64,000 bases of DNA from assembly GCA_903919315.1 (NCBI GenBank), contig CAIXHP010000057.1, positions 1 to 64,000 on the forward strand, written 5' to 3'. The number at the start of each line of letters is the position of its first letter. Position 1 is the first letter of the stretch. Below, one piece after another: positions 15,724 to 55,362 of this stretch. The position numbers were made by a program, and so were the translations under genes. This stretch comes from an uncultured Pseudomonadota bacterium. GTDB lineage: Bacteria; Pseudomonadota; Alphaproteobacteria; UBA9219. Below the pieces are notes generated by a model. The model searched no databases and had not been told where the DNA came from. It saw nothing but the letters and a program-made list of their open reading frames with translations.

Positions 15724-15783
15724 AGTGTGTTCTCCTCGTGGTTTGAGTTCGTCTTTCATGGCCCTACATAGCACACTGAAGCG

Positions 15784-15853
15784 AGTATACAGGGGGCGGT
15801 TTAAGAAGGAAACCGTACCCAAAGTTAACAGCAAGAAGTTATCCAAAGATTAA
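15784..15853 (-). promoter_or_regulatory. Candidate promoter and CtrA-like site upstream of the main prepilin
   Basis: In the gap upstream of the prepilin, the minus strand carries TATACT (15784-15789), a possible -10 box, about 60 bases before the start codon. Further upstream lies TTAA-N7-ATAAC (15838-15853), one mismatch from the alphaproteobacterial CtrA consensus TTAA-N7-TTAAC. No good -35 hexamer is visible. CtrA controls pilin genes in Caulobacter, which makes the match suggestive only. Confidence 0.25.
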
Positions 15854-15899
15854 TAGGGCGGCAAGCCTTAAAACTTTTTCGCGTCATCCGCCCCGAGGC

Positions 15900-16592: not shown

Positions 16593-16599
16593 GGTCACC

Positions 16600-17223: not shown

Positions 17224-17260
17224 GGGCTTTCTCCGCTTTAATTGGCTCCAGCTCGACAGC

Positions 17261-20343: not shown

Positions 20344-20436
20344 CTGACAACCGCCATCGTTTGATGAACACGAAACAGGACGCGCCCGGCCTGAGCAAAA
20401 TAATCATGTTCCGTAAACTAAACATGAAGACTGCCG

Positions 20437-24072: not shown

Positions 24073-24084
24073 CGTCATCCCCAC

Positions 24085-25005: not shown

Positions 25006-25187
25006 GTATCTTGCCCTTTTTGAGGCCATTGCCATATTTTGACCCACATTTTAGATCAGCCTGTATACTCCCACAACAAGCGTGGAGTCTACGCCCATTG
25101 TACGCCTCCACCTGTGGGATTTGGGCAACACACCGTCGGAACAATGCCCACCCTGAAGGAAGATACAGGCTTCGGAAGGGGGTGGGA

Positions 25188-25457: not shown

Positions 25458-26720
25458 TCAATACCCGCCAAGCCCGTAATCGTCGGATTCTCCGGCTTCG
25501 GGGGTCGGCTCCACATCAATGTTCGAAATGTCGCCCAAGGCCGAATCATCGGCGGCTTTTTCGTCGGACGAAAGGCCTTTGGTCAGCAACAGATACGTAC
25601 GCCGGTCAATCAGCCCGTCTTTGAACGCCGTGTTGGCCGACTGCTCCATCGTTCGGCCATAGCGCACGAGGAAGCGTTGCGTTTCGGTCGTCCAGCGCTC
25701 GACCGCCATATCCAGCAACTGTTCGCGCACATTGTCGTCAAACACCATGTATTCGCGCAAACCGATGCGCCCGCCGCCGACTTTCGGCACCAACGCCTGA
25801 GTCACAACCATGCGCAAGGTTTCCATCAAGGCGTAAGCGCGTTCGGTGCGTTCGCTCGGTTCAAACACGCTGATCATCCGGCGCACCGAGGCGGCTACAC
25901 CGATTGTGTGCAGCGTCGAAAAGACCAAGTGGCCCGTCTGGCCCGCTTCGATGGCGGCGGACATGGTTTCGCGGTCGCGCGCTTCGCCGACGAGGATGAT
26001 GTTGGGCTTGCGCCGCAAAGCGTTGCGCACACCTGCGGCGAACGTCGGCAGATGGCGCGGAATTTCGGTTTGCGCCACCAGCGAGCGCGGGCCGGTGATC
26101 GCGTCGTACACATATTCGATCGGCGCTTCGTAGGTCAGCATCTTGCCGCAACCCTGTTCGCGTTCGATCAGCATGCGGCATCCGGAAGCAAGCAACGTGG
26201 TCTTGCCGCTGCCGGTCGGCCCCGTCACCAGAATCAGACCCTGACGCGGCGACCAGCTGTTGATGATGGCTTCTTCGATGCCGAGGTCGCGCATGGTGGG
26301 CGGCAGATTGGGCAGGCTGCGCAACGTCACCTGAACCGAATCACGTCCGCGACTCAGGATGGCGGTGATGTTGGTGCGAAAGCGGTAGCGGCTGTTTCGC
26401 TCGGGCCGCACTTCGTAGGACAGATCGAGGTCGCGCCCCGATGCGAGCTTGGCCAGCGCGTCCGGCCCGTACAGGCGCGACAGCACGTTGGCCATGTCCG
26501 CCGAATCAAGACCGCGACGCGTCACGGGATAGAGGATGCCGTCCACTTCGATATAGGCCGGACGATCCGTTTGCAGCGTGATGTCGGTAGCCCGCCTGAG
26601 GGCGCACCACAACAGCAGACCGTCCACGTCCGATTCTTGCATGCGCAAGGGTTCATCCGGCCAGACACCGATGGCGGCCGACGGATCAACAACAACGGTT
26701 ACCTTGGCGCTGTCGTCCAC
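25458..26720 (-). CDS. dotB: Dot/Icm secretion ATPase DotB (TraJ-like)
   Basis: A protein of 420 residues, a cytoplasmic hexameric ATPase of the PilT/VirB11 superfamily. The N-terminal domain (1-150) is followed by Walker A GPTGSGKT (167-174), an Asp box (YEAPIEYVYD), Walker B (NIILVGEARDRETM) and a His box (GHLVFSTLHT). The C-terminal DotB-specific region runs to about residue 390. It starts at a GTG (26720) with GGAG six bases upstream; the first seven codons overlap the end of dotC. DotB is recruited late to the inner-membrane complex to energise substrate transfer. All catalytic motifs look intact. Confidence 0.95.
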   Translation of the reverse strand: MDDSAKVTVVVDPSAAIGVWPDEPLRMQESDVDGLLLWCALRRATDITLQTDRPAYIEVDGILYPVTRRGLDSADMANVLSRLYGPDALAKLASGRDLDLSYEVRPERNSRYRFRTNITAILSRGRDSVQVTLRSLPNLPPTMRDLGIEEAIINSWSPRQGLILVTGPTGSGKTTLLASGCRMLIEREQGCGKMLTYEAPIEYVYDAITGPRSLVAQTEIPRHLPTFAAGVRNALRRKPNIILVGEARDRETMSAAIEAGQTGHLVFSTLHTIGVAASVRRMISVFEPSERTERAYALMETLRMVVTQALVPKVGGGRIGLREYMVFDDNVREQLLDMAVERWTTETQRFLVRYGRTMEQSANTAFKDGLIDRRTYLLLTKGLSSDEKAADDSALGDISNIDVEPTPEAGESDDYGLGGY

Positions 26721-27565
26721 TTGTCGCTCCGAGGAATGAGGACGGACGGACCGGTGATGGTCAGCCCACGATCGCCAACCCGCATCTCGGACCCACCGCC
26801 CGTGACGCCATGGTCTTCGTGCAACGCGTACGGCGGCGAGATCATGCCCTGCGCCAGCAATTCGCGATAGCGGCTCATCCCCACGAAATCGTTGGCCATG
26901 CGATCGAGATCGGCCTCAAAGGTTTCCTCGGCTTGATCCACGCCAGCGTTCCATCCTTCGTCAACCCACTTGCGCCACAGCTTGCGCTCTGTCGCATCGC
27001 GCGGCAGCAGAAGGCTCGGCGGCGGATCGACCCGGCCCCAGTCGCGTTCCAGGTACAAATGCCAATTACGCCCCGCCGTCACGATCCGGGCCGCGCGGTT
27101 GATTCGGTACACACGGTCGGCCACGGCGGCCTCTTGGCCGCCGCCGTTCACGATCACCGCGCGCTGCGCTTCGGACACCACCGGCGGCTCGATCAACAGA
27201 CCGGACGGGACGGAAATCAAAAGACGCGAGAAATCGAACGTTTTCGAGAGGCTGGTGTCGAACTCAGCCAGTCGCCGTTGCACCTCGAACGTACGATGCG
27301 CCAAACCACCGCGCGCGCCGTACGACAGCGCCGCTTCGCGCAAGGCATCCGCGCGTATCTGCAAACCGAGAACCTCGGACTTGCCCGAATCCGCGCCGGT
27401 TTTTTGTTCCTGTAAATCCTGCAACGCGGGCGGCGGCGGTGATGCCGCCAGAGGCGTGTCGTCCGCATGGGCCGCGCCTGCTCCGGCCATCCACGCCAGA
27501 GCCATCAGGGCGACGCAGGTGCGCGACCAGATCTGGGCGTTTTTAAATTTTATCGACAGGGGCAT
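26699..27565 (-). CDS. dotC: Dot/Icm outer-membrane core protein DotC (TraI-like)
   Basis: A protein of 288 residues from the ATG at 27565; a TTG six codons upstream is also in frame. It has a signal sequence (CVALMALAWMAGAGAAHADD), then the DotC family core: LREAALSYGARGGLAHRTFEVQRRL, PSGLLIEPPVVSEAQ, YRINRAARIVTAGRNWHLYLERDWG, and DEGWNAGVDQAEETFEADLDRM. With DotD it helps place DotH in the outer membrane. Legionella DotC is a lipoprotein; here no cysteine follows the hydrophobic core and an AHA-D signal-peptidase I site is seen instead. It overlaps dotD by 23 bases and dotB by 22. Confidence 0.92.
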   Translation of the reverse strand: MPLSIKFKNAQIWSRTCVALMALAWMAGAGAAHADDTPLAASPPPPALQDLQEQKTGADSGKSEVLGLQIRADALREAALSYGARGGLAHRTFEVQRRLAEFDTSLSKTFDFSRLLISVPSGLLIEPPVVSEAQRAVIVNGGGQEAAVADRVYRINRAARIVTAGRNWHLYLERDWGRVDPPPSLLLPRDATERKLWRKWVDEGWNAGVDQAEETFEADLDRMANDFVGMSRYRELLAQGMISPPYALHEDHGVTGGGSEMRVGDRGLTITGPSVLIPRSDKWTTAPR

Positions 27566-28040
27566 AGCTGATCTCAACAACACCGGCTTGACTATCCACG
27601 GTTAAGTTCGCGCGTTGTCCGGCTTGGAACCCGACATCGCGGAGGACTTCGATCAGCGGCTTTTGATACACGTCAACGTTGACGGTCAAAGGCACACCGC
27701 CATGACTGCCCACCTCGCGGAACCGAAGCCCGGCGCGCGTCGCCAAGGTCTGCGTGATTTGCTCGATCGGCCCGGTCCACTTGACCGTGATCGGCTGCGT
27801 CATGTTCGGCGGCGCGGACGCGTAATCGTCCGGCGGCGGGAGATTCGGCGTGCGCTGTTGCTCGATGCCTGCGATGGAGTTGAGCGCCTGTGAGGCCTTC
27901 TCCGCCGCCGCCGCGATACGCGTGCCGACCAGATCCGGTTCGGTGGCCACGGGAACCAGCGTGGTATTGTCGACGCAACCGGCCAAAACCAAGCCCGCCA
28001 ACAGAAACGTCGTCTTTGAAACAAAGCGCTTAGGCATCAT
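27543..28040 (-). CDS. dotD: Dot/Icm outer-membrane lipoprotein DotD (TraH-like)
   Basis: A protein of 165 residues. The signal peptide ends in LAGC with Cys at about 22, so it is a lipoprotein. After a linker, the domain PITVKWTGPIEQITQTLATRAGLRFREVG and the stretch LTVNVDVYQKPLIEVLRDVGFQAGQRANL reproduce the secretin N0-like fold known for DotD, ending GVVEISYAP. DotD targets DotH to the outer membrane. It is the first gene of the dotD-C-B-icmT run. A 154-base gap precedes it; this holds a 6-bp hairpin at 28176-28193 without a T tract. Confidence 0.92.
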   Translation of the reverse strand: MMPKRFVSKTTFLLAGLVLAGCVDNTTLVPVATEPDLVGTRIAAAAEKASQALNSIAGIEQQRTPNLPPPDDYASAPPNMTQPITVKWTGPIEQITQTLATRAGLRFREVGSHGGVPLTVNVDVYQKPLIEVLRDVGFQAGQRANLTVDSQAGVVEISYAPVDKI

Positions 28041-28194
28041 CGTTCACAGCACCGATCGGTTGAGTCCACAATTACCGCAACGCAAAGTTCGGCGGAAGGC
28101 CAATCTCCACACTGCGACAAGCACCATTCAGGGTATAAACCGCTTACGCGCCCCAGACAACAGCTTCCTTCCCGTCGGAGCAAAATCGCTCCGC

Positions 28195-28482
28195 CTAGTG
28201 ATAACGTAGAAAGTACAGCGCAAACCCCATAAAACAGCCGGAGGGCAACAGAAGCAAAAGCGCCGTAACCCACGCCCCGGAAAACAGGGAAAAAAGGCTG
28301 AACACCAGAAAAATGGCCGCCCCTATGCCGTAAACCAGCGAAGCCCTTGGCAAGATATCCGGCACGCCCGCCACCGAGCGCCGTTGTTGCGGCAACCCCG
28401 GACCCCGGACTTCCAAGGTCGGCAAGCCGACCTTTTTCACGGTCTGCAGCGGCGTTTTGATCCGATCGAGCCAGTTTGCCAA
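28195..28482 (-). CDS. Small two-span membrane protein, unknown, in the secretion locus
   Basis: A protein of 95 residues. About 45 polar residues at the N terminus (MANWLDRIKTPLQ, then VRGPGLPQQRRS) are followed by two tight hydrophobic segments (about 48-66 and 70-91) ending FALYFLRYH. I do not recognise a family, and it does not match IcmT or the DotP/DotE pattern. It begins eight bases after the DsbC-like gene, so it is in that transcription unit. A small inner-membrane subunit of the apparatus is the simplest inference. Confidence 0.6.
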   Translation of the reverse strand: MANWLDRIKTPLQTVKKVGLPTLEVRGPGLPQQRRSVAGVPDILPRASLVYGIGAAIFLVFSLFSLFSGAWVTALLLLLPSGCFMGFALYFLRYH

Positions 28483-28490
28483 AACGCCCC

Positions 28491-29486
28491 CTACTTCAGC
28501 AGGTCGCTGAGGACGGCCGCCATGCGATCCGGCTTGCCCTGAACGATCTTCACGCGCCCGTCCTTAGCCCGATAGACGAGATACGGCGTCGAGCGGATGT
28601 TCCAGCGATCCACCAGCGAACTGTTGGCCATCACAGCCTGCACCCTCACCCCGTCCGGCTTGCCGGACAGGACGCTCTTGTCCCCCGCCACATATTTGTC
28701 CCAGTCTTCGAGCGGATTGGCCGACTGCAGCAGGAGCGCACCCGCCGTTGTCTCCTCGCTGGTGAGGCGGGTGATGGGGATCAACTTTACCTGCAAGCGG
28801 TTGGCCGAAACGGATTCGCGCAGCTCGCGCCACGTCGCCTTGCAATGCGGGCACTCAGGAGCCACCACCATCAGCAGCTCGGCGTTGTCGTTGTGGCCCA
28901 GCGTTACGCCCGCCGCCGCCTGCAAATCCTGCATCAGCCGCTCACCCGGCGATACTGTCGCGGACGGCAAAGTGTTGGCCAGAGTCTTGCCCGTCGGCGG
29001 CGCGCTGCCGGGAACCGAGGCGATTCCGCCCGCATCCGCGCCAGCCTTGGTGATGTCATCCTGCTGTTTGGCGGAACCGTTCACCAGATCCGCGACTTCC
29101 TTGTTCGTTTCCGCCAGAGCGTTGATTTGCGGCCCCGTCACATTGTCGCCCGCCCCTGTGAACATGCCGCCGACCAGCGCCGTTTGGCCGTCCGCCGTGA
29201 CGTAGATCATCTGGATCTGACTGTCCTTGACAATAAACCATCCACTCAGGCCGGATCGCTCGCCGAGGTAGTAGAGCTTTGCCCCCGCCTTCACGATGGA
29301 AGCCAAAACCGGAATGTTGTTGATGTCCGGAGGATTGGGGCGGCGATTGAAAAGCCCGTCCGCTTCCATCTTGGAGATGACGCTGCCCACCGGCGACACA
29401 GGTGCCGTCACTTCGGCAAACGCCACGGGAGCGAAGGCCAGCGCGGCCACAACGACCGAAGACAACAAAAGATTCAAGCGCACCAT
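28491..29486 (-). CDS. Periplasmic DsbC/DsbG-like thioredoxin-fold protein
   Basis: A protein of 331 residues from the ATG at 29486, with AGGGA upstream. A signal peptide (MVRLNLLLSSVVVAALAFAPVAFAE) is followed by an N-terminal domain (about 30-110: PPDINNIPVLASIVKAGAKLYYLGERSG, then IQMIYVTADG), a helical linker, and a thioredoxin fold with the redox motif CPHC at about 212 in APECPHCKATW. A cis-Pro loop follows (RSTPYLVY). The layout resembles DsbC/DsbG isomerases, in which the N-terminal domain dimerises, but this N-terminal domain is different and is also encoded alone by the next gene upstream. It probably oxidises or isomerises the cysteine-rich proteins encoded upstream in the same orientation. 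Confidence 0.82.
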   Translation of the reverse strand: MVRLNLLLSSVVVAALAFAPVAFAEVTAPVSPVGSVISKMEADGLFNRRPNPPDINNIPVLASIVKAGAKLYYLGERSGLSGWFIVKDSQIQMIYVTADGQTALVGGMFTGAGDNVTGPQINALAETNKEVADLVNGSAKQQDDITKAGADAGGIASVPGSAPPTGKTLANTLPSATVSPGERLMQDLQAAAGVTLGHNDNAELLMVVAPECPHCKATWRELRESVSANRLQVKLIPITRLTSEETTAGALLLQSANPLEDWDKYVAGDKSVLSGKPDGVRVQAVMANSSLVDRWNIRSTPYLVYRAKDGRVKIVQGKPDRMAAVLSDLLK

Positions 29487-29594
29487 TGGTTCTGTTCCCT
29501 CTCTGAATTCTTTGTCGAGCATGATAGCCGTGAGTCGGCTTCCGTGACTAGCCTTGGACGCGACGGGACGGATTTTTTCTTTCCGCGTCCGTCG

Positions 29595-30012: not shown

Positions 30013-30474
30013 TCACCGTTGGGCGTAATAATAGCGCTTTGGCACCTGCGCGTAACCTTGATCGTGTCGAATTAGACCTTTTCGTTCCATAGCCTTTATA
30101 ACCTTGGCGGCGTAGGGGTACCCATGGCGCGGCGTCGCCGAATGATAGTGCGCGATGCCGCCGTAGAGCGATCCCGCCTCGTCGATCTTGTCGCGCAGAA
30201 TCCACGCGGCGACCCGCACGTTGATGCAGCCGTCGTCGCGCACCAGCGCGTGCGCCGTGCGGGGATCCACGCGCCATGCGCGCGCCAGCATCGGAATCCA
30301 GTGCGTGTTGACCTGCATCGGACCCAAGTCGTAGGTGCCGTTGCCGTTGGGCCCGATCTGCTGCCCGACGCGCCCACCTTCCACATGCATGATTCCGATC
30401 ATCACAGCCGGAGGCACACCGTAATTATGCGCGGCCAACATCAGGCATGTCGCGAGGGCTTGGGCGGTGATCAT
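30013..30474 (-). CDS. Lytic transglycosylase (SLT, PilT/VirB1-like)
   Basis: A protein of 153 residues from the ATG at 30474, which overlaps the upstream stop as ATGA; a GTG two codons earlier is possible. The SLT core is clear: the catalytic Glu in MIGIMHVEGG, then TYDLGPMQVNTHWIPML, and a late NVRVAAWILRDKI with YHSATPRHGYPYAAKV. Such enzymes cut peptidoglycan to let a secretion channel or pilus cross the wall. No classical signal peptide is seen beyond a weakly hydrophobic start (ITAQALATCLMLAA), as in other conjugation-type transglycosylases. It could serve either the Dot/Icm core or the pilus; in R64 the pil-encoded enzyme is PilT. Confidence 0.85.
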   Translation of the reverse strand: MITAQALATCLMLAAHNYGVPPAVMIGIMHVEGGRVGQQIGPNGNGTYDLGPMQVNTHWIPMLARAWRVDPRTAHALVRDDGCINVRVAAWILRDKIDEAGSLYGGIAHYHSATPRHGYPYAAKVIKAMERKGLIRHDQGYAQVPKRYYYAQR

Positions 30475-31328
30475 GGCCACCCCTGCGTTTCGAGTTGGGC
30501 CGAAGACGGCACCTCAAGATAAGTCGCCATCGTCGCCAGCATCGCCATGCGCTGGTTGAACGCCTGCCAGACCTGCGTCATCGGCACGATGTTCCCGTGC
30601 TGCGCGAAATAGGCGGCGCGATCATCAGGATTCATATACAAAAGGCGATCGGCTTCGGCGTAGTGGCACTCAGTGTAGATTTGCCCTGCCGCGCGCAGAA
30701 TGTTCCAGCACAGCACACGCCATTGTTCCGGCGTCGAGCCGGGAGCCGCCAGCGCCCGCGTGATCTGGTCGGCGATTTTCACAAGGCGCTCGGCAACTTC
30801 GGCCAGCAACGCGTGTTCGGCCCGGCCAAACGCGTATTGCGCCACTGCGCCGATGACCGGCACCATGGATTCCATCATCTTGGCGCGGAATGTCGCCACC
30901 GTGTTGGGCAGCGACTCGCCGCCCGCCGGGATCTGGCTCTTGAATTTGGACTGAAGCGTCGCGGCGATGCCCGCCAGACGTTGCGCTTCCTCCAACGGCA
31001 TCGCGTGGCCTGTGGCGCGGTAGCTGGCGGCGACGACCTGACTGGCCGATCCGGCCAAAGCCCAACGCACCCACGCGTCGAGCTGATCTTCGCTCGCGCC
31101 CAGTTGCACGGCCAATTCGCGGCACAACACCACCGTACTGTCGATCAGAGCGCCGAACTGCTCCGCGTTCGGGCCGGACGGCGCAGCATCGTTCGGCTTG
31201 CCGCCCTCGCCGCTCGGCGTTTCCGCCAAAGCCTGCAACAGGGGCATGCCCACTTGCCGGAAAGCCGCCAGCAACGTTTGCAGGCGGGATTCCGTTCCAG
31301 CATTTTCGTTTTGCGCTCCGTCAGCCAT
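30471..31328 (-). CDS. Alpha-helical protein of unknown function in the secretion locus
   Basis: A protein of 285 residues from the ATG at 31328. It has no signal peptide or clear membrane segment, so it is probably cytoplasmic. The first 60 residues are flexible (Gly/Pro/Asn-rich). The rest is predicted helical, with blocks such as VVLCRELAVQLGASEDQLDAW, KMMESMVPVIGAVAQYAFGRAEHALLAEVAERL and QIYTECHYAEADRLLYMNPDD. I do not recognise a family. Its stop overlaps the start of the transglycosylase gene, so the two are translationally coupled. Possible roles, by position only: chaperone or adaptor for secreted partners, or an ATPase regulator. Confidence 0.62.
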   Translation of the reverse strand: MADGAQNENAGTESRLQTLLAAFRQVGMPLLQALAETPSGEGGKPNDAAPSGPNAEQFGALIDSTVVLCRELAVQLGASEDQLDAWVRWALAGSASQVVAASYRATGHAMPLEEAQRLAGIAATLQSKFKSQIPAGGESLPNTVATFRAKMMESMVPVIGAVAQYAFGRAEHALLAEVAERLVKIADQITRALAAPGSTPEQWRVLCWNILRAAGQIYTECHYAEADRLLYMNPDDRAAYFAQHGNIVPMTQVWQAFNQRMAMLATMATYLEVPSSAQLETQGWP

Positions 31329-31459
31329 CTTCAAACCATTCCCTTCAAGGGTCCTCTATATTGTCTTACGTCAAATTCGTTTCCGCCGTAGCGGTGCCTT
31401 AGTCTAGTGCCGGAAACACCGCTGCGTCTATAAACTGCCCCGTTTGGGTTGCACAATGG

Positions 31460-33100
31460 TTAATCTCCTTCTTTTGCGTCCCGCCCGCCCGACGCTTTCG
31501 CGTTGGCCGGAATCATGCGCGGAGTTGCCTCGGCGCGATCGCCGCCGCGCGGGCGAACGGCGCGCGGCGCGCTGATCCGGTCAACCGAACGTCCGCCTTT
31601 GGCCGCTACGCCGACGAAGCAGGTTTTGCTTAGCTCTTGCAAACCGGCGGCCGCTTGCTCGATGTTGGCCTTCTCAACTTCGAGCAACGCGCGCCAGTCG
31701 GTCATGGATTTCTCGCAGTCGACCACCTGACCGTTCAGATCGCCATGGTTTGCGCCGGTGTTCACGCTGCTCAGCCAATGCTGACTGGTCTTGCACATCA
31801 ACTGGCCGACGTACTGCGCCTGATACGCGCTCATACCCAAATCGCAAACGACACCCGGCGGCAACTGGACACCCGATGCCTGCGCCGCGTTACAGGCCTG
31901 CATCAAGGGCGTGCATATGGGCGACATATCTCCGTCGCGGCAATAGGGGCGCGTCAATTTGGCCAATCGTTTCAGGCACGGAGTCACGATAGCGGTTTGG
32001 TTGGACAGACAATGGTCGTACTGCGCCGCCGCCGATCTTCCTTGCGGTGACTTCCGTTCTTCACCGCTCGGCGGCGTTGGGCGCGGGCCGACCAGCTGGA
32101 AGCAAAAACGCAACCCGGCGATCCAGCGTTGCTGCGCCACATATTCTTCCTCGCCGCGTCCGCCGCTTTCCGGCGACAACAGCTCAGGATCGGGGGTAGG
32201 AACCTTTATCGTGATCGTCTTGCCGGAGGATGTCTTAACGCTTTTCTCCACGAACATCGGCATTTCGTGCGCCAACGACACGTCCATCAGGGTAGAGGCT
32301 TTGATGTCGGCATCCGTGAGGTTCTGATGATCGACGGAGTGCGGGATCGGTTCGGGAGCCTTCTCGACGCACTCGGGCGGCACCCCATCGATAGGATTCC
32401 CAAACTTCGGGTCGTTGGCACGCGGGCCGGTCAAGGGAGGGCAGCGGAGCGCGTAGGCATCCGCCGCATACTGAGGGCCGGTGCCGTCTTCACCGGGGCC
32501 ACGGTACATGTTGGTCAACGCTTCCGATGCCGCTTTCTCAACCAGATCCGCGAAATAGTCGGCGACGGTGCCCGCTTGTTGTCCGATGATGATATTGCAC
32601 AACTCGACGTTTGTGTCCGGCGGCGGCGCGGTTTGTTGCACGGTTTCAGTGGCCGATTGAGCCTTGGCAGTGTCATGGGCGGCATCGCCTTTCGCCTGCG
32701 CCGTATCGGCCGTGAGCTTGCCGCGCACCGCCGTGGCACCGGAAATGCCGTCGTACTGCTTGCTCTGTTCGTCCATAAACTGTTTTGTGTATTCTTCGTA
32801 GACTTTCTTCATCGCAATCACGCTGTCGTATTTCTCGAACTGCGTCACCCAATCAGCTGCTTCTTGCGCGAATCCTACCGCCCTTTCCACAACGGCGGCG
32901 CTGTCGAAGACAAGCCAGCCACCCGCCATCGTCCGTGATGGAAACGACAGGGTTAAAATCGAAACCACAGCCACAAGAAGCACCCCACGCCGAACGAGCC
33001 TCTTCACGCGGCCTTCTTGACAGGACGCGGAGGCGCACGGAGCCGCGCGCTTAAGTTCCGCCCCCCCCGTCCTCTCCTCGTTCCGTCCGACCTTGGTCAT
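31460..33100 (-). CDS. Cysteine-rich secreted protein with VirB5-like N terminus, paralogue 2
   Basis: A protein of 546 residues if it starts at 33100. A GTG at 33007 would give a normal-length signal peptide (VKRLVRRGVLLVAVVSILTL to TMAGG). The mature N terminus, WLVFDSAAVVERAVGFAQEAADWVTQFEKYDSV, resembles the first helices of VirB5/TrbJ minor pilins. The remainder has 13 cysteines and the blocks MYRGPGEDGTGPQYAADAYALRCP, SGVQLPPGVVCDLG and TGANHGDLNGQVVDCEKSM. Near the C terminus is DRISAPRAVRPRGGDRAEA, then a basic tail. All 13 cysteines have counterparts in the adjacent gene at 33118-34683. Likely periplasmic or surface-exposed and disulfide-bonded. Function unknown. Confidence 0.75.
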   Translation of the reverse strand: MTKVGRNEERTGGAELKRAAPCASASCQEGRVKRLVRRGVLLVAVVSILTLSFPSRTMAGGWLVFDSAAVVERAVGFAQEAADWVTQFEKYDSVIAMKKVYEEYTKQFMDEQSKQYDGISGATAVRGKLTADTAQAKGDAAHDTAKAQSATETVQQTAPPPDTNVELCNIIIGQQAGTVADYFADLVEKAASEALTNMYRGPGEDGTGPQYAADAYALRCPPLTGPRANDPKFGNPIDGVPPECVEKAPEPIPHSVDHQNLTDADIKASTLMDVSLAHEMPMFVEKSVKTSSGKTITIKVPTPDPELLSPESGGRGEEEYVAQQRWIAGLRFCFQLVGPRPTPPSGEERKSPQGRSAAAQYDHCLSNQTAIVTPCLKRLAKLTRPYCRDGDMSPICTPLMQACNAAQASGVQLPPGVVCDLGMSAYQAQYVGQLMCKTSQHWLSSVNTGANHGDLNGQVVDCEKSMTDWRALLEVEKANIEQAAAGLQELSKTCFVGVAAKGGRSVDRISAPRAVRPRGGDRAEATPRMIPANAKASGGRDAKEGD

Positions 33101-33117
33101 GCGACCACCGCTTTCCG

Positions 33118-34683
33118 TTACTGTTCCAGCGTGGCAGGAAGGCTGATTTGATCGGCGTCAATCGGCACGCCGCGCGGCATGGCTCCATCCTTTCGGACGG
33201 ACGGAGCGCGGGCGCTGGCCTTTTTCATGCTGGATGCCTCGACCGGAGCGGCGGCCTCGGCCCGGTCACCGTCACGCGGGCGCACCGCGCGCGGCGCGTT
33301 GATCCGGTCGGTGGACCGCCCCTGCTTGGCACCCGTGCCCGCGTAGCACGTCTCGCTCAACCGCAACGAGCCGATCATCCCGTTCAGAATGTTGGCCTGC
33401 ATCAGGGCTTCCTTCGCCCGCCATTGGTTCATCGCGGCCTCGCAATCGATGGCCTGGCCCGCCAGCGCGGCGTGGTTCGCGCCGGAGTTGGCTCCATCCT
33501 GAAAGTGCTGGTTCGATTTGCACGTCAGGTTTGCCAGATATTCGGCATCGCGCTGGCTCAGGCCATCATCACAGCTTTTGATGTCGGGCGGCAACTGAAC
33601 GCCTGAGTTTACTGCCTGCGTGCAACTGGCCTTGGTCTGTTGGCAGAGTTCCGCATTGTCCGGGTTCGAACAATCGGGCCGCGTGAGATAGCCCAGACGC
33701 TCGGTGCAAGGGTTGGAGAAGGCGCTGCGGTTCGCGGCGCAGTGGTAGAATTGGGCCATCCCCGACCGTCCCTCAGGCCCCTTCGCCTCCTCGCCGAACG
33801 ACGGCGAATCCATAGGCCCCGCCGCCTGAATGCAATAATGGAAGGCGGCCATCCACATCTTTTGGGCCTTCAGCTTCTCGCCCGATCCGCTGGGGGTGGG
33901 CACTTGAACATTGACATTCTGGCCGCCGACCGAGACCGTTGACTTGACCATCTTGGGCAGTTCCAGTTTCACAAGACCGCTCATGATCTTGGAGTAATTG
34001 ATGTCGGCGTCAACAAAGTCCGGGTCCGCGTCGACGCATTTTGGATCCCCGTCGAGCGGGCTGCCGGTTTTAGGATTGGTGCCTTTCTGAGGGCACCGCA
34101 TCGCATGTGTGTCCGCCGCATAGAGCGGTCCTGAGCCGTCTTCGTTCGGGCCACGGTAGAGGCTGTTCAGACCGTCGGAAGCCGCTGCTGCCACGACTTT
34201 CGAGAAATAAACAAGAGCTTCAGGCCCTTGACGCGCGATGACGTTTTGGCAAAGCTGTTTGTTGGCGGGGGGCGGCGCAACGTGGTTTTGGGTGAATTCC
34301 GCCGCCGACTGGGCCATCGCCGTGTCGTGCTGGGCGTCGATTTGGGCCTGCGCCGTATCGACCTGTAGTTTGCCGAGCACCATGTTCGACGCGAACAACC
34401 CCTCAAGCTGGGATGCCGAGTTTTCCATAAATGTGGATGTCAGTTCATTTAGCTTTGAGGCCAGATCGATGACGTTCTGTAACAATCCGAAGTTCTCGGC
34501 CCAGTTTATCCCTTGATCTATCCAGCCCTTGGCTTGTGATGCGAGATTTGCGGCATCGAAGACCGGGGTGTCCGCGCGGGCGGGTCGCAGCGGCGCTATG
34601 GCGAGGAAGGCCGCCAGCAGCAGAACGGGCGAACGCCGCAACCATTTCCGCCCGATGCCTTTGGAACGCAATGTCGTTTCCAT
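33118..34683 (-). CDS. Cysteine-rich secreted protein with VirB5-like N terminus, paralogue 1
   Basis: A protein of 521 residues. A signal peptide (WLRRSPVLLLAAFLAIAPLRPARAD) is followed by TPVFDAANLASQAKGWIDQGINW, close to the VirB5/TrbJ start (VFDxxN then Gln-rich amphipathic helices). A helical region to about residue 140 precedes a long cysteine-rich part with 13 Cys, including LYRGPNEDGSGPLYAADTHAMRCP, SGVQLPPDIKSCDDG and SGANHAALAGQAIDCEAAM. The C-terminal motif DRINAPRAVRPRDGDRAEA is shared with the next gene, 17 bases downstream. VirB5 proteins sit at conjugative pilus tips as adhesins; a similar role here is inference. The Cys-rich part matches no family I know. Confidence 0.75.
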   Translation of the reverse strand: METTLRSKGIGRKWLRRSPVLLLAAFLAIAPLRPARADTPVFDAANLASQAKGWIDQGINWAENFGLLQNVIDLASKLNELTSTFMENSASQLEGLFASNMVLGKLQVDTAQAQIDAQHDTAMAQSAAEFTQNHVAPPPANKQLCQNVIARQGPEALVYFSKVVAAAASDGLNSLYRGPNEDGSGPLYAADTHAMRCPQKGTNPKTGSPLDGDPKCVDADPDFVDADINYSKIMSGLVKLELPKMVKSTVSVGGQNVNVQVPTPSGSGEKLKAQKMWMAAFHYCIQAAGPMDSPSFGEEAKGPEGRSGMAQFYHCAANRSAFSNPCTERLGYLTRPDCSNPDNAELCQQTKASCTQAVNSGVQLPPDIKSCDDGLSQRDAEYLANLTCKSNQHFQDGANSGANHAALAGQAIDCEAAMNQWRAKEALMQANILNGMIGSLRLSETCYAGTGAKQGRSTDRINAPRAVRPRDGDRAEAAAPVEASSMKKASARAPSVRKDGAMPRGVPIDADQISLPATLEQ

Positions 34684-34694
34684 GGTATCCCCCC

Positions 34695-35375
34695 TTAAAA
34701 TCTTGAATTGCCGGACGGGTCAACGAGGCCCCGCGACATGTTGTTCAGAACCGCCGGGAACGGATCATGCACCACGAACAGCGGCGATGGATTTACTCTC
34801 AGCAAGTCGGTTCCCGAAATGCCGTTGCAGGATTCGGCTCCCGGATATTTCAAGTCCCAATTATTAAGACCGAAATTGAAGTCCGGCAGCGGCAAGCATA
34901 TTTTGGAAAGCCCATAGTTAATGATTCCGGCTGCGTATTCACAGACTTGGTTGATCAGGTCCGTGATTATGCGGAGAACAGCCGCCACGATCGCCCCCAT
35001 TATCGATTTAATGCCACTGAGCAAATCGTGAATGGTTTGAAAATACTTCAAAACCGTCGTTAAGCACGTCATGTTGTGAGTGATCGGCTGCTGCGCGTAC
35101 ACGGTGCGTCCCGCCATGATGCCGTAATCGACATAGGCGGCGGTGCTTTGAAGCAGCTTGCGTTGAAAACTGTCCGCGTCATTGGGATCACAGGTCATTT
35201 CTTTCGGCACGCCTGTCGGCTCGGCGGGGGTCGGGGCCGGAGCCGCCTGCGCGGGCGACGCGGCGAGGCCGAGCAGCAGAAACAGCGCCATCGCGAGCGC
35301 GCGCCAAGCCAAACGGGCTTTTCCCCGCCCTTTACGCAAGTCGTTCCGGCCCCTATCCGTGTGCGCATTTTTCAT
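34695..35375 (-). CDS. Secreted protein with the CLPLPDF domain, short paralogue
   Basis: A protein of 226 residues. A basic, rather long n-region and a hydrophobic signal core (RALAMALFLLLGLAASPAQAAP) lead to a segment with GIMAGRTVYAQQPITHN. Next comes a hydrophobic helical stretch (about 103-160, KYFQTIHDLLSGIKSIMGAIVAAVLRIITDLI) and the conserved tail NQVCEYAAGIINYGLSKICL, PLPDFNFGLNNWDLKYPGAESCNG, ending with a NMSRGLVDPSGNSRF motif. The same domain forms the C-terminal third of the upstream gene. Four domain cysteines are conserved between the two. It is probably periplasmic with a membrane-inserting or aggregating helical hairpin. I do not recognise a family. Confidence 0.72.
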   Translation of the reverse strand: MKNAHTDRGRNDLRKGRGKARLAWRALAMALFLLLGLAASPAQAAPAPTPAEPTGVPKEMTCDPNDADSFQRKLLQSTAAYVDYGIMAGRTVYAQQPITHNMTCLTTVLKYFQTIHDLLSGIKSIMGAIVAAVLRIITDLINQVCEYAAGIINYGLSKICLPLPDFNFGLNNWDLKYPGAESCNGISGTDLLRVNPSPLFVVHDPFPAVLNNMSRGLVDPSGNSRF

Positions 35376-35387
35376 GTTTTCCCCCTC

Positions 35388-36641
35388 TCAAAACCTTGAT
35401 CCGCCGGACAAACCCCGCGTTATGTTGTTCAATCCACCCTGAAACGGATCCGGCACCACCAACAGAGGTGACGGTCTCACCTCCAACAAACTGGTGCCGC
35501 CCAAGCCGTTGCATGACACGGCACCGGGGTATTTCAGGTTCCAATTTTTAAGCCCGAAATCGAAGTCCGGCAGGGGCAGGCATATTTTGCTGAGCGCGTA
35601 ATTGATCAACCCGGCTGCGTATTCGCACACGCGATCAATTAAAGTATTGATCAGCGCAAAGATGGCGGCAGAAATCGCCGAGATTCCATTCAACAACTGT
35701 TGGATGACGTTGAAGTAGCCCAAAACCGTTTGTATACACCCCATGCGATAGGCCATCGGCGTGATCGACTGCGCGTGGGCCTTTGAGATGAGGGAAAAGT
35801 CCAGTGCGGCGTTCTGCGTCGTCGGTTCGGACGACGGCAGCGCCTCAGACTTTTTGGTTTCCGGTTGCGGCGCGGTTTGGTTGGTGATCGGTTGCTGCGC
35901 GTACACCGTCCGCCCCGCCTCAACCGCATGACTCGAAAAAACCGCCGAAGCCTGCTGCAACGCCTGCGCTAACTGCAAATCAGGGCAATTGATCGGTCCG
36001 ACCATGCCGGTCGTGTCCTCGACTTGAATGTTGGATTCGCCGGTATAAGGGTTTGTGCCGACCACGCCAGTCATACAGTCGATCCCCATCTTATTACAGG
36101 CGTTCTGAGCGTAGTGATTTACGTACCCCGTTTTTTTTATCGTCCACGAGCAATCGAACCGAGATTCCTTATGCTCGTTCTTACACCAGGCGGCACCGTG
36201 ATTGTAGGCGCATAGTGATGCCCCGAAGACTTTGCATTGCGTCGAATCGCGCTTCAGAATGAAGATACCGCACCGCATGCTTAGCACATGGTCGGTCAGC
36301 ATAGCCTCGCCCAATTGATAAAGCGTACCGCTATAGCCGAGGGCCTTTTTGCAGGCCGCAAAGTTCGTATTCAACACCTGCATAATGCCGGTACTGTATC
36401 TCCCGTCCGGCTCAGTCGCCTTACCACAGGGTGTGCCCCGTTCCGCAAAGGGCTGACATTCCATCGACATAATAGCACGCAGTTGCGCTACCAGATTCTG
36501 GTCGCCTCCGTACCCAAGCTCCTGCGCGACTTGCTGGATAACCGCGTCCGCCTTGGCACTAAACGTGAAGTGGCCAGCCTTGGCGTGGGCGGACGACAAA
36601 GGGAACATCGCAAGGCACACCCACGCGAACAGAAAGCCCAA
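35388..36641 (-). CDS. Lytic transglycosylase-like domain fused to the CLPLPDF domain
   Basis: A protein of 417 residues if read from the TTG at 36641. A signal peptide is followed by an SLT-like domain (about 25-190) with the catalytic Glu in LRAIMSMECQPF, GRYSTGIMQVLNTNF and CAYNHGAAWC. It is unusually rich in cysteine (11). A linker with EAGRTVYAQQPITNQ leads to the C-terminal domain DRVCEYAAGLINYALSKICL, PLPDFDFGLKNWNLKYPGA, paralogous to the next gene. No good start codon fits this frame. A strong ribosome-binding site (AGGGGG) and ATG at 36705 lie upstream in another frame, joined only if one base of the A5 run at 36681-36685 is skipped, so the true N terminus is uncertain. Confidence 0.78.
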   Translation of the reverse strand: MGFLFAWVCLAMFPLSSAHAKAGHFTFSAKADAVIQQVAQELGYGGDQNLVAQLRAIMSMECQPFAERGTPCGKATEPDGRYSTGIMQVLNTNFAACKKALGYSGTLYQLGEAMLTDHVLSMRCGIFILKRDSTQCKVFGASLCAYNHGAAWCKNEHKESRFDCSWTIKKTGYVNHYAQNACNKMGIDCMTGVVGTNPYTGESNIQVEDTTGMVGPINCPDLQLAQALQQASAVFSSHAVEAGRTVYAQQPITNQTAPQPETKKSEALPSSEPTTQNAALDFSLISKAHAQSITPMAYRMGCIQTVLGYFNVIQQLLNGISAISAAIFALINTLIDRVCEYAAGLINYALSKICLPLPDFDFGLKNWNLKYPGAVSCNGLGGTSLLEVRPSPLLVVPDPFQGGLNNITRGLSGGSRF

Positions 36642-37419: not shown

Positions 37420-38640
37420 TCATCGGCAAGGGGCCGGGGACACACTGCCCCGCGCCAGCGCGAAGGCCAAGCCCGTCAGGGCGATGGCCGCCAGCAGGGA
37501 ATCTGCCCAAAAGTTATAGGCCACCAGACTGAGCCCAAACGCCATCGTCCAGCCGCCCAAGGCAAAGGGGATCATCGGCGCGGGCATCCGCCCGATCCGC
37601 CGCAGGGTCAGGAAAACCAGCCCCAACCCCAGCGCCAGCCCCGGCAACCCCAATTCGACCCACAACTGGGTCATAACGTTGTGGGGATGGGAAACCGGCC
37701 CTGTGGTCAGGACATAGAGCGCGCCGTGCGGTTCGGCGGGGAGCAGTTGGCGGCTCCCGCCCAGACCCCAGCCGAGCCAAGGGCGCTCCATGATCCGGAA
37801 CGACATGAAATCCCAAATTTCCATGCGGGCGAGCCACGATGCGGGCAGTTTGGCCACCCAATCGTGACAGCGCAGGAACAGCTCTTGCGCCGCGAACGGC
37901 CACGCCACCGTCACGACCGCCGCCGCGCCGAGCGCGCGCCGCACGAGCGTCGGCGCGATCTGCGCCGCCAGCATCGCCCCCACCGCCAGCACGACCGCCA
38001 TTTGCGTCGCGCGGGAATGCGTGAGCCAGAGCGGCGGCAGCATGATCAAGACGAAAAGCGCCGTTTGCCAGCGCCGCTTCGCTTTGTCGCCCACGCCCAG
38101 CCACAGCAGCGCCAGAGTCGGCCAGACCAGCAGCATCGCGTAGGACAATCCGCGATTGTATTTGGTGAGGAGCCGCTCGTCCAACACCTCAGCTCCGCGC
38201 ATTTTGACCAGCAGCGGCGCGCCCAGCAGCAAATCCACGCCCAGCGCCAGAAAACCGATCCCCAACGTCCATGGCCACAGGCGGAACAAGAGGGGCGAGG
38301 CCGCCCGCGCCTGAACCGCCGGGCAGGACAGCAACAACAGGGGAACGATGATCGATGCCAGTTTGAGCGTGGCATGCCATGAGGTCGCGGGAAACGCCGC
38401 CTGAAGATTCAGCAGGGCGCAGATCGACAAGGTCAAAAACGTTAGGGCGGTCAGCTCTGGATCGGGGCGCGGAGCGCGGCCGTCCGCTCGCCACGCCGCC
38501 AGAAACAGCAGAACGCCACCGCCGATCCCCAGCGCCGCGTAAGTCCCGCCCGACAGCATGCCCAGCGTTCCGGCCAGACCAAAGACCAAGCACACGATCC
38601 ACGGGACGAGGCGGGCGGCGAGGGTTTGGGACGGTGGCAT
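37420..38640 (-). CDS. O-antigen ligase-like polytopic membrane protein (WaaL/Wzy_C family)
   Basis: A protein of 406 residues from the ATG at 38640. A longer frame exists upstream, but it runs through a dispersed repeat. About 11 membrane segments are predicted. The large periplasmic loop before the last group of segments contains WDFMSFRIMERPWLGWGLG and PVSHPHNVMTQLWVELGLPG, with the His-Pro-His-Asn characteristic of O-antigen ligases and polymerases. Such enzymes join polysaccharide to lipid A core or polymerise it in the periplasm. With the glycosyltransferase gene upstream it forms a small surface-glycan pair inside the secretion locus. Whether it is a ligase or a polymerase cannot be decided. 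Confidence 0.82.
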   Translation of the reverse strand: MPPSQTLAARLVPWIVCLVFGLAGTLGMLSGGTYAALGIGGGVLLFLAAWRADGRAPRPDPELTALTFLTLSICALLNLQAAFPATSWHATLKLASIIVPLLLLSCPAVQARAASPLLFRLWPWTLGIGFLALGVDLLLGAPLLVKMRGAEVLDERLLTKYNRGLSYAMLLVWPTLALLWLGVGDKAKRRWQTALFVLIMLPPLWLTHSRATQMAVVLAVGAMLAAQIAPTLVRRALGAAAVVTVAWPFAAQELFLRCHDWVAKLPASWLARMEIWDFMSFRIMERPWLGWGLGGSRQLLPAEPHGALYVLTTGPVSHPHNVMTQLWVELGLPGLALGLGLVFLTLRRIGRMPAPMIPFALGGWTMAFGLSLVAYNFWADSLLAAIALTGLAFALARGSVSPAPCR

Positions 38641-38698
38641 GAGCGGGATTCCGACGTTGAGAGAGCGATCATAAAAACCAAACTTGCCCGCCACCTTA

Positions 38699-38819
38699 AG
38701 CCCTCCCCCCTTGAGGGGGAGGGTTGGGTGGGGGGTCACTTTCCGTCAGCGCCGAACTTGCGCCGTCCCACCAAGCGGAACCTACCCCCCACCTAGCCTC
38801 CCCCTCAAGGGGGGAGGGA
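38699..38819. repeat. Composite palindromic repeat, family A, copy 3
   Basis: Same two inverted arms and spacer (CCGTCAGCGCC, TTGCGCCGTCC) as 8954-9070 and 12923-13040, the spacer being more diverged here. It lies between the O-antigen-ligase-like gene and the glycosyltransferase gene. Confidence 0.85.
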
Positions 38820-38848
38820 TATGGACGGAGCTTGCGGCGAGATGCGTG

Positions 38849-39886
38849 TTACTTGGTATAGGCCTCCAGCAAATCGCGGTAAAGGCGGAGCATGCGTTGG
38901 GTCACCGACTCGCGCGTGTAGTCGCGGATGTAGGTGGCGTAGCCTTGCGCGATCAGACGGCGGCGCAAGGCATCGTCGTCGCGCACCCGGTGGAGCGCGT
39001 CGGCCAGCGCGGCCGGATCGTCGATGGGGGCCAACAGCCCGTTCACGCCGTCTTCGACATGCGCGGCGGGGCCGTCGCTGCGGCAGGCGACGAGCGGGGT
39101 TCCGGCGGCCCAAGCTTCGAGAATCACCGTGCCGAACGGCTCGTAACGCGAGGGCAGCACGCATAGGCTGGCGGCGCGAAGCAACGCGCCGCGATCGGTG
39201 CGCCAGCCGAGGAATCGCACGCGATCGCCGAGGCCCAGTTTTTGCGTCAGTTGTTCCAATTCGGCGCGAAGCGGCCCCTCGCCCGCCAGCCAGACATACA
39301 CATCCGGCAACAGCTTGGCCGCCTGCAACAGCGTGTCGAGGCCTTTTTTCGGATGCAGGCGCGACAGCGCCAGAACAACCGTGGCGTTCGGCGGCGTTGC
39401 CAGCAGGGTGCGATCCAACGGCGATTCGTTTTTTACGTCCGGAAACGTCGGCACAAAATGCGCGTTCGACTCGGGCACGCCTTCCTTGACCATGTGCGCG
39501 ACGATGGCTTTGGTGACTCCGACGAAGGCGGTGCAGCGCTTGAAATGCTTGGGCTTGTAATAGCCGCCGAACCAGCCGATGACGGGGCCTTTGTCCCAGC
39601 GCGGCATCAGACTGGCGGCGCGGCGCATCCAGCAGTGGACGAGGTCCGGTTGTTCCCGTTTCACCAGCTGGCGCAACGCCCACCACTGAAACGGACGGAA
39701 GCGCGAGGCCAGAACTTCGGGCGCGGTGCGGATGCCCGCTGCGACCAGTTCGCCATAGCGCGGCGCGTCTTTCGCCACCACGGCGCACTGATCCACGCCT
39801 TCGGCGTGCAGAGCGAGCATGATGTCGGTCGCGTAGGTTTCCGCGCCGCCGAGGCCTCGGCTGGCCATAATGTGAAGAATGCGCAT
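38849..39886 (-). CDS. Glycosyltransferase, GT4 family (GT-B fold)
   Basis: A protein of 345 residues. The N-terminal Rossmann domain begins MRILHIMASRGLGGAETYA, the Gly-Gly-Ala-Glu acceptor-side motif. The C-terminal domain begins VVLALSRLHPKKGLDTLLQA and contains RVRFLGWRTD and the nucleotide-sugar-binding EPFGTVILEAWAAGTPLVA (E-x7-E). It would transfer a sugar from a nucleotide donor to a lipid-linked glycan at the cytoplasmic face. It lies 96 bases after dotL in the same direction and upstream of the O-antigen-ligase-like gene. Substrate unknown. Confidence 0.9.
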   Translation of the reverse strand: MRILHIMASRGLGGAETYATDIMLALHAEGVDQCAVVAKDAPRYGELVAAGIRTAPEVLASRFRPFQWWALRQLVKREQPDLVHCWMRRAASLMPRWDKGPVIGWFGGYYKPKHFKRCTAFVGVTKAIVAHMVKEGVPESNAHFVPTFPDVKNESPLDRTLLATPPNATVVLALSRLHPKKGLDTLLQAAKLLPDVYVWLAGEGPLRAELEQLTQKLGLGDRVRFLGWRTDRGALLRAASLCVLPSRYEPFGTVILEAWAAGTPLVACRSDGPAAHVEDGVNGLLAPIDDPAALADALHRVRDDDALRRRLIAQGYATYIRDYTRESVTQRMLRLYRDLLEAYTK

Positions 39887-39982: not shown

Positions 39983-42409
39983 TTACTCCGCGTCGCCCGT
40001 CGAGGATTTGCCGCTGAGGCCGCGATTGAGCTTGCTCGCCATTTTTTCCAGCAGAGTCGCGACTCCGCCCGGCAATTGCACGGCCATCACGTCTTCGTAC
40101 GACGACTCGGTTTCTTCGCCGGGGCGCGTCACGATGTTCGCATCCAGATCGGCGGCGGCGAAGACGGGTTTCTTGGTGGCGGCGCGCGGCGACTCGAACG
40201 GCTCCAGCTCCATGATGGCGTATTCATCGCCTTCCTGCACCAGCGGGGCTTCGCCGTAGGGAACCGCGATGCCAGATGGAATCTTGGCAGCCATAGCTGC
40301 CGTCGCCGGTTGTTTGTCCGGCGCGACGACGCGGGAACCGGGGGCCGCTTTGCGCGGCGCGGGCGGCATGGCTTCGCCCGCCGCAGCCGCCGCGCCTTCG
40401 GGCAGGGCGGCCAGTCCGGCCAACGCGACGATTCCAGCTTCCAGAGGCGAGAGCCCGCTCTTCTCGGCGGCATCAAAATGCTTGGCCAGCGCTGCGATTT
40501 CAGGGGAAGTCGGCACAGGCGGCGTGCCCGCCGCCGTCCAATCCGCGCTTTTAAGCCGCGACGACAGTTCGTTCAGCGCCCGCTCGCGCGCAGCTGTCGA
40601 GGTCGTGGAAGCGGGGACGGGCAGCAACTTGTGGACACGCAGCGCCCGAACCTGCTCAGGTGTGGCATGGAACATCCGCGCCCGCACGATGTATTCGGCG
40701 AACAGCATATGCACTTCGCCCTCGCGCTGGGTGCGCAGATGGTCATAATCCGCGCGATTGCGCGATTGGGCCGAGCCGACACCACGGTTGTCGTAGAACG
40801 CCGAACTGACAAACAGGCTGCTGATGGTCGAGGTCGGCGCCGACATGCCACTCGATTCCATCACCCAGTTCGTGCCGACGTGCTTTTGGAAGAAATCCTT
40901 GGTGTCGGTCGGATCTTCCAGCTTGCCAAAGATCTTGAGGTTGCAGTTGCCGAGAATGGACTGCGCCTCTTGCTTGACGCGTTTTTCCATCGACGGCAAA
41001 TCCTGCGCCGCAAAGATCAGCGAGAAGCCGAGCGAGCGCGCCTGCGCCGCCATCACGGCCATGCCCGGCGCGGTGTAATAGCCGACTTCGTCGAACACCG
41101 TCATGAAGGACGAGGCCGAGCGCATCTGCTTGCTGCCGATGGCGTTTTCCCACGAGCCTTCGACCGTGTTGCCGAGCGTCGCGCCCATCATGCCCTTTAA
41201 GCTGGCCGCGATAATCTTGCCGAGATTGGCCGCTTCGTCGCCCGATTTCTCAAGCGCCGGAATCAAGGCCACCAGAATGCGCCGGTTGAGCACAACGTCT
41301 AGCACGTCGATGTCGGCAAGTTGGGCCTTGAAAATATAGCCGTATTCGTCGGCCAGAGATTGCAACGAACGCGTGAACTGCATCGACAGATAGCCGTGCT
41401 GTTGCCGCGCCACCTGCATGTCCTGCACCGGCTGATCCGGCGACGGCGCGCGTTCGTTGCCTTCGTCGTCAAACGCGGCATCGGCGTAGCCGGGCAGCGT
41501 GTTCAGGTAGCCTTGCAGACCACGGATGATGCGCTCAGGCAAATCGGCATCGCGCGACAGGCGGATGATGGCCGGAAGCTCGATGTATTCACGCAGAACG
41601 CCGACATCCATCAGCAAACCGCCCTTGTCGCGCTTCCATGTCAGCGCGGGCATCAGCGCACCCAACAGCGCAACGGCGCGTTCTTTCCACATGGCATTGT
41701 CGCCGCCCGCGTCGGGCATCAGGCTGGTGACCATGTTGGTCAGGTACGATGCCGAACCGTTCGAGAACGGATTCATGGTGTTCGAGGTGGCTCCGGCGTC
41801 CGAGTTCGCCGTCATGTAGTTCAAAATCAGCAGATCGTCGTCGCGACCGAAACGGCGCGCCAAGGCAAAGAGCGAGGCCCACAGATCCGTGTCCGCCTTG
41901 CCGTCAACATAGACAAAGCCCGATCCCCACGACAACGAGTTGGTGACGATGGCTTTCAGGCCATCGGTCTTGCCCGAACCGGTGGTGCCGAGGAACAGGA
42001 TGTGCGTGCGCGCGTCCGTGTTGGTCAGCCACAATTCGCGGCCATGATGTTCGACGTTCTCCTTGTCGTCCAGATTGCCGAGATAGAGGATGCCTTCCGA
42101 CTTGCCCGCTCCGGCCTTGCCAGGACGCGGGTTGTGGCTGTCCGGCAAATTCGCATGCTGGGGGAATTTGAAGGGAAGAAAAAAGGGCCGCTTTTTGAAC
42201 CAACGCACGTAAAGCCAGACGAAGATAAGGCTCAGGTCGGCAAACACCGCGTATTGCGGCATCAGCACGAACAGCGCCGTGACCGAAAAGCCGAACATGG
42301 CCAGTGTGTCGTTCTTGCCCCAGAATTCGGCGATACGCTGCCCGGCGGGCCGGACGTCGCGTAAGACTGCCGTTTTTTGCGGCAGTATGTGTTTTGGCAG
42401 AAGCGGCAT
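39983..42409 (-). CDS. dotL: Dot/Icm coupling ATPase DotL/IcmO (TrbC-like)
   Basis: A protein of 808 residues. Two N-terminal membrane segments lie at about 36-52 and 55-70. The P-loop ATPase domain has Walker A GTTGSGKT (141-148) and Walker B region FMTVFDEVGYY, followed by AAQDLPSMEKR. It is the type IV coupling protein that receives substrates and feeds them to the channel. The C-terminal 200 residues (about 600-808) are Ala/Pro-rich and diverge from the core; in Legionella this region carries the adaptor-binding sites, but no IcmS/IcmW genes are visible here. dotM, an unknown gene and dotL run in that order, as trbA-B-C do in IncI plasmids. Confidence 0.95.
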   Translation of the reverse strand: MPLLPKHILPQKTAVLRDVRPAGQRIAEFWGKNDTLAMFGFSVTALFVLMPQYAVFADLSLIFVWLYVRWFKKRPFFLPFKFPQHANLPDSHNPRPGKAGAGKSEGILYLGNLDDKENVEHHGRELWLTNTDARTHILFLGTTGSGKTDGLKAIVTNSLSWGSGFVYVDGKADTDLWASLFALARRFGRDDDLLILNYMTANSDAGATSNTMNPFSNGSASYLTNMVTSLMPDAGGDNAMWKERAVALLGALMPALTWKRDKGGLLMDVGVLREYIELPAIIRLSRDADLPERIIRGLQGYLNTLPGYADAAFDDEGNERAPSPDQPVQDMQVARQQHGYLSMQFTRSLQSLADEYGYIFKAQLADIDVLDVVLNRRILVALIPALEKSGDEAANLGKIIAASLKGMMGATLGNTVEGSWENAIGSKQMRSASSFMTVFDEVGYYTAPGMAVMAAQARSLGFSLIFAAQDLPSMEKRVKQEAQSILGNCNLKIFGKLEDPTDTKDFFQKHVGTNWVMESSGMSAPTSTISSLFVSSAFYDNRGVGSAQSRNRADYDHLRTQREGEVHMLFAEYIVRARMFHATPEQVRALRVHKLLPVPASTTSTAARERALNELSSRLKSADWTAAGTPPVPTSPEIAALAKHFDAAEKSGLSPLEAGIVALAGLAALPEGAAAAAGEAMPPAPRKAAPGSRVVAPDKQPATAAMAAKIPSGIAVPYGEAPLVQEGDEYAIMELEPFESPRAATKKPVFAAADLDANIVTRPGEETESSYEDVMAVQLPGGVATLLEKMASKLNRGLSGKSSTGDAE

Positions 42410-55358: not shown

Positions 55359-55362
55359 GAGG

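Follow-up and report, generated by a model that had tools for sequence, protein, structure and literature searches.

IcmX of the Legionella Dot/Icm system (NF038225; PDB 9ngy) occupies the VirB5 position of a T4BSS. Two articles reporting Yue et al. 2025 describe it as the VirB5 counterpart: together with DotA it makes up a central channel, a pentamer, which on activation reaches beyond the cell (PMC12857230, PMC12981334). Transfer of R64 and of IncM pCTX-M3 requires TraW (PMC6112013). In Bartonella, trwJIH, encoding VirB5, VirB6 and VirB7 counterparts, have been amplified, and TrwJ1 and TrwJ2 bind erythrocytes via band 3 (PMC3406051). The kib T4BSS of Pseudomonas putida kills bacteria (PMC9519443). 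No type IV secretion system was reported in the 2011 genome paper on M. aeruginosavorus (PMC3189940), and a MAG of the order studied here has been described as a photoheterotroph (PMC9933672).

We analysed a 64,000-nt stretch of DNA (the window) from genome G000 of that order. On the minus strand, starting at ~56 kb and running towards 15 kb, it encodes two DotI/IcmL proteins (54609-55995), the outer-membrane core protein DotH (53401-54612), the TrbI/VirB10-like DotG (51894-53411), a 997-aa ATPase at the DotO position (44353-47346; labelled by locus order, its Pfam match being weak), DotM (43002-44243) and a DotL-like coupling ATPase (39983-42409). A glycosyltransferase, an O-antigen-ligase-like gene and a 198-aa putative lipoprotein follow, then a lytic-transglycosylase-like (SLT) domain fused to a second x226 domain (35388-36641), the stand-alone x226, a secreted four-Cys helical protein (34695-35375), and genes A and B. 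After B come x287, a conserved 287-aa protein (30471-31334), a TrbN/VirB1-like lytic transglycosylase (30013-30480), a 138-aa protein, a DsbG/DsbC-like thiol:disulfide isomerase with a CPHC motif (28491-29522), the DotD lipoprotein (27543-28040), DotC (T4SS_TraI; 26699-27583), the DotB ATPase (25458-26720) and an IncI-type type IV pilus set (15154-25047) comprising a TcpQ-domain protein, the PilN secretin, PilO, a PilP-position protein, PilQ, PilR and pilin-like genes. DotB, DotC, DotD, DotG, DotH, DotI, DotL, DotM and, by gene order, DotO identify the machine as a T4BSS. Both DotA genes lie on other contigs of the genome, away from the main dot locus (C36:18625-20661 and C4:1091-3046). Since housekeeping genes (aroA, threonine synthase, gltX) lie on the flanks, the locus is chromosomal. 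The placement of A and B within a secretion locus, proposed in an earlier note made from the DNA letters, holds: the pair lies among the dot genes.

Two features of the surrounding genes are recorded here as observations. The glycosyltransferase and O-antigen-ligase-like gene occupy 37420-39886, between DotL and the A/B array; an O-antigen-ligase-like gene is also found upstream of the corresponding position in G008, G009, G012, G017, G025 and G031, accompanied by a glycosyltransferase in G025 and G031. An SLT-x226 fusion adjoining a stand-alone x226 also occurs elsewhere (L028:1076-2368).

Gene A (33118-34683, minus strand) encodes a 521-aa secreted protein consisting, in order, of a signal peptide, a VFDxxN start, a helical N-terminal part, a 13-Cys domain, a linker and a conserved C-terminal tail, GVPIDADQISLPATLEQ. 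Gene B (31460-33100, minus strand) is its tandem paralogue, 546 aa as listed, likewise with a VFD-type motif after its signal peptide. Their alignment has 214 identical residues in 497 aligned positions (43%), and all 13 Cys of A pair with Cys of B. The motifs RGPNEDGSGPLYAADTHAMRCP / RGPGEDGTGPQYAADAYALRCP are seen in A/B, and SGVQLPP in both, so that the description of the pair as tandem secreted proteins with 13 aligned Cys was confirmed in its coordinates, strand and motifs. B as listed has 15 Cys; the two additional ones (22 and 27) sit ahead of the signal peptide. The true start of B is likely the GTG at 33007, which has AAGAAGG upstream, lies just ahead of the signal peptide and would give a protein of 13 Cys.

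In the A/B family alignment, Cys is the majority residue in all 13 columns, and Cys 354, 371, 388 and 414 (A numbering) are invariant in the 24 near-complete members. Losses are paired: 338 and 347 vary together (15/24 members), as do 315 and 446 (16/24), each with phi 1.0, and 197 and 216 do so with phi 0.8. This is the pattern expected of disulfides, though kinship among members inflates such counts. An AlphaFold model of the Cys domain, of moderate confidence (pTM 0.72, pLDDT 70.6), comprises a helical bundle and a beta hairpin. Separately, we noted that a tail of the form ~GxPxxADExxxPxxVxQ, placed after a poorly ordered linker, closes one paralogue class (A residues 504-521; L028:6129-7682, L033:2805-4352, L037:10955-12538 and L036:6092-7774) and is absent from the class formed by the last genes of the arrays.

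Searches of Pfam, NCBIfam and PHROGs with A and B, as single proteins, and with 23 family members gave chance-level matches only, including one member that matched TrbJ_Ti (E 0.011) and one that matched DUF4141 (E 0.006). No family member scored against the NCBIfam TraW and IcmX models, and none of the TraN families matched, which places A and B outside F-type TraN. The PDB yielded no match by sequence, nor by fold with either the full AlphaFold model or the Cys domain; fold matches that involved long helices were rejected as coiled-coil artefacts. IcmX does have solved PDB entries (9ngy, 9nh0), yet the modelled Cys domain matched no PDB fold. No matches were returned by tblastn against plasmids with A, x287 or the g4 protein described below, or by a first scan of genome contigs with A alone. 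Thus, no characterised family unrelated to secretion claims the Cys-rich domain in Pfam, NCBIfam, PHROGs or the PDB. The suggestion that this part belongs to no known family survives for curated families, but divergent homologues occur at the same place in other genomes of the order, and a distant link leads to TraW. We conclude that A and B represent a real, unannotated, fast-evolving family outside the curated TraW and IcmX families.

The proposed VirB5/TrbJ-like N termini were borne out over a short distance. In VirB5 and TrbJ, as in A and B, the signal peptide gives way to a V[FY]DPxN-type motif and helices; TrbJ differs in being about 250 aa long with 0-2 Cys. With hhalign, the A family matched TrbJ over 46 columns (P 1.9e-7), and over 19 columns once the signal peptide was removed (P 1e-4). 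Beyond these 19-46 N-terminal columns the likeness ends, and we found no full-length homology to VirB5/TrbJ. Among 385 genomes sampled across the class, matches outside the order were N-terminal only, and three of them were trbJ genes beside trbE in three unrelated genomes. As far as sequence can tell, the TrbJ-like start is genuine but small, at about 20-45 N-terminal residues.

Within the order, which we take to be the Micavibrionales (NCBI places the genus Micavibrio elsewhere), a chromosomal T4BSS is almost universal, with DotH in 29 of 33 genomes. Relatives of A and B form tandem arrays of 2-4 genes at one fixed place in the locus in 9 of the 33, a recurrence that makes the pair more than a chance arrangement; G008 contributes one gene at a contig end, and a tenth genome, G025, an N-terminal match only. 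The named relatives of the array come mostly from Micavibrio MAGs. All seven arrays with a continuing contig run on through x287, TrbN, DsbG, DotD, DotC and DotB, so that A/B-family orthologues lying commonly away from dot loci, which the earlier note would have counted against its reading, were not seen. Other genera carry a single gene in the same slot, and the order x226, A/B-type gene(s), x287, TrbN, DsbG, DotD, DotC, DotB recurs across the order. In most genomes x287 follows the array or slot gene, and x226 lies directly upstream of the slot gene in most genomes where this stretch was read; none was recognised beside the slot genes of G003 or G007. In the stretches that were read, some more distant single-copy homologues from genus g4 (G003, G010 and one copy in G020) are found apart from dot genes.

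The slot proteins are related to A and B through the Cys-rich part. The A family matched the slot proteins of g4 and its kin with P 5.6e-18, and still with P 6.6e-14 after the N terminus had been cut off, compared with P of at least 0.0024 for 15 unrelated families of the locus. Against the A family, P was 3.7e-7 for the slot protein of f3 and 1e-4 for one slot protein from family f2. A second large protein in the f2 slot (G024/G026) was considered as a relative, and homology was not found.

A more distant relationship connects the slot to TraW. In plasmid T4BSSs of Acetobacteraceae and Beijerinckiaceae, a 174-195-aa Cys protein and then a 376-405-aa protein are encoded close upstream of DotA. 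The larger protein is TraW: this is the annotation that one of them bears, members match NF033888 at 3.6e-6 to 2e-7, and Pantoea TraW matches the TraW-type profile with P 2.5e-10. All slot proteins together matched this profile with P 1.4e-5 over 297 columns (14 control families gave P of at least 0.029, and reversed profiles 0.73-0.87); taken separately, the A family gave P 2.9e-5 and g4 P 8e-5. The link is a distant one and varies with the depth of the profile, since an early TraW-type profile built from the first 6 sequences gave only P 0.02 against the slot. The gene before the slot points the same way. x226 is small and secreted, with three invariant Cys and one nearly invariant, and it matched the protein directly before the TraW-type genes with P 2.2e-7 (controls at least 0.022). 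In g4, the pair of x226 and a single-copy slot homologue adjoins DotA in G016 and G020, which is not so in the window's genome. A 458-aa protein beside DotA in Lichenicola was also compared as a candidate relative and ruled out. TraW-type proteins in turn matched IcmX with P 7e-5, and one matches the IcmX model at 0.015; a single IcmX sequence compared directly with the A family gave nothing (P 0.7).

Like A and B, TraW is a secreted T4BSS component, and the profile similarity extends over ~300 columns. However, TraW proteins are about 375-405 aa long with 2-7 Cys, whereas A and B have 13 conserved Cys in a domain of helices and a beta hairpin. TraW belongs to the DotA/TraY neighbourhood and adjoins DotA, and many plasmids encode an x226-like protein before it; A and B adjoin x287-TrbN-DsbG-DotDCB. 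IcmX, tied to A and B through TraW, is single-copy, has 2 Cys in the compared sequence, and matched them directly neither in sequence nor in fold.

No proteins of the locus have diverged further than A and B, whose median identity to relatives is 28-29%, compared with 61-81% for DotD, DotH, DotC and DotB (DotB 80%). A tree of genus g2 resolves three old paralogue classes that keep the same order within the array, with A and B as mutual closest relatives (99/99). In G014 and G007, adjacent copies have in common a block of ~540-630 bp whose DNA identity is at or near 100%, with strongly diverged sequence on either side (L033:3-2736 and L038:1909-4589, respectively); these blocks look like gene conversion, the other explanation being a MAG assembly artefact. 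DotA is present in 2-3 copies in several genomes of the order. Across 13 genomes, copy numbers correlated with rho 0.94 for DotA and x226, 0.81 for DotA and slot genes, and 0.92 for x226 and slot genes, the points being related genomes, several of them drafts, with counts tabulated by hand.

These data are consistent with A and B being T4BSS components in the TraW/IcmX (VirB5) position, diversified duplicates that form, with x226, the outer end of the channel on DotA, and we consider this the probable arrangement. A and B would be exported by Sec and oxidised in the periplasm, probably with help from the neighbouring DsbG-like isomerase. Together with the x226 protein they would assemble atop DotA, where they would make up the outer portion of the central channel or stalk, and firing of the machine would push them outward to meet a target cell. 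The gene would have duplicated and its copies would have diverged while DotA and x226 gained additional copies in parallel. We infer the oligomer, its contact with DotA, its exposure at the surface, the binding of a target and the identity of that target as prey. Duplication with divergence suggests that a cell could make the channel end in several versions, in the way of Bartonella with its trwJIH copies. There too, in the amplification of trwL and trwJIH, the copies of a VirB5-type gene multiplied and diverged alongside those of a VirB6-type gene; unlike the system described here, Trw is a T4ASS that binds erythrocytes, and it is not known to carry the Cys-rich domain of A and B.

Of the two roles that had been suggested for the pair, tip adhesin or surface effector, a tip-type role is the best reading, given a homology to TraW that is distant and leads on, via TraW, to IcmX. 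Nothing points to effectors. Delivery of A and B by the T4BSS as effectors or toxins would suit secreted, variable, multi-copy proteins encoded inside a secretion locus, but we regard it as very improbable: A and B carry Sec-type signal peptides and belong to a structural gene module, no catalytic family was found, and across the family that structural operon retains a homologue flanked by conserved partners. It is also unlikely, if less so, that A and B act outside the channel, as accessory outer-membrane or surface proteins stabilising contact with a partner cell in the manner of the Cys-rich TraN of the F plasmid. Such a role would fit secreted Cys-rich proteins that diverge fast and share an operon with a DsbG-like isomerase; however, TraN families gave no match, and both their placement with x226 and the match to the TraW-type profile point to the channel module.

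What the machine is for is a separate matter. A and B might have the same identity in a T4BSS that is the conjugation machine of an old integrated element, with the array serving mating rather than predation. The IncI-like gene set with its coupling protein and the occurrence of TraW runs on T4BSS plasmids speak for this, as does some PF03432 relaxase in 16 of the 33 genomes. However, no relaxase was found in the window; in a survey covering PF03432 and TrwC-type relaxases, 14 of the 29 DotH-bearing genomes had no PF03432 and none of the 33 had a TrwC-type relaxase, and in G029 the relaxase on the DotH contig lies about 346 kb away. This scarcity makes protein delivery likelier, and we consider a conjugation machine rather doubtful. 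A chromosomal T4BSS aimed at other bacteria has a parallel in P. putida kib, which differs in being a recently acquired island with an effector-immunity pair and no reported A/B array. We advance only tentatively the possibility that a chromosomal T4BSS, so far unreported, is carried by putative epibiotic predators in the Micavibrio order, and that the tip in its VirB5 position has grown into an ordered array of diversified variants, braced by disulfides, which would recognise different prey bacteria and dock on them. If so, it would be, to our knowledge, the first T4BSS with a multi-variant set of receptor-binding tips for killing or feeding. Micavibrio-type attachment to and feeding on prey are poorly understood, and a variable, multi-copy tip component would be a concrete candidate for the contact. 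It would also suggest that VirB5/IcmX/TraW components have been amplified as a recurring strategy across T4SSs.

Consecutive TraW-type genes are also present near DotA in T4BSS plasmids, where we know of no description of them. Runs of 2-3 TraW-type or TraW-like genes are carried on plasmids of Pseudomonas juntendi and probably also of Teredinibacter and some others. Similar-looking runs occur in Bosea, Alteromonas and Methylobacterium, whose members were not confirmed one by one. The Alteromonas members, two of three from Bosea and two of three from Teredinibacter were not significant singly against the TraW profile, making these three runs weaker evidence. Runs of 2-3 near DotA were seen at L156:28427-32540 (the Teredinibacter plasmid), L162:1487-4215 and L164:3756-7563.

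A further observation concerns the pili of the order. In G005, a pilin-like protein is encoded after DotM (27160-28551; L087:7160-8551). Its C-terminal part, SDQRLKKDVTTIEDGLDNV, resembles an S74-type chaperone domain of tail spikes, and the protein is a possible pilus tip adhesin.
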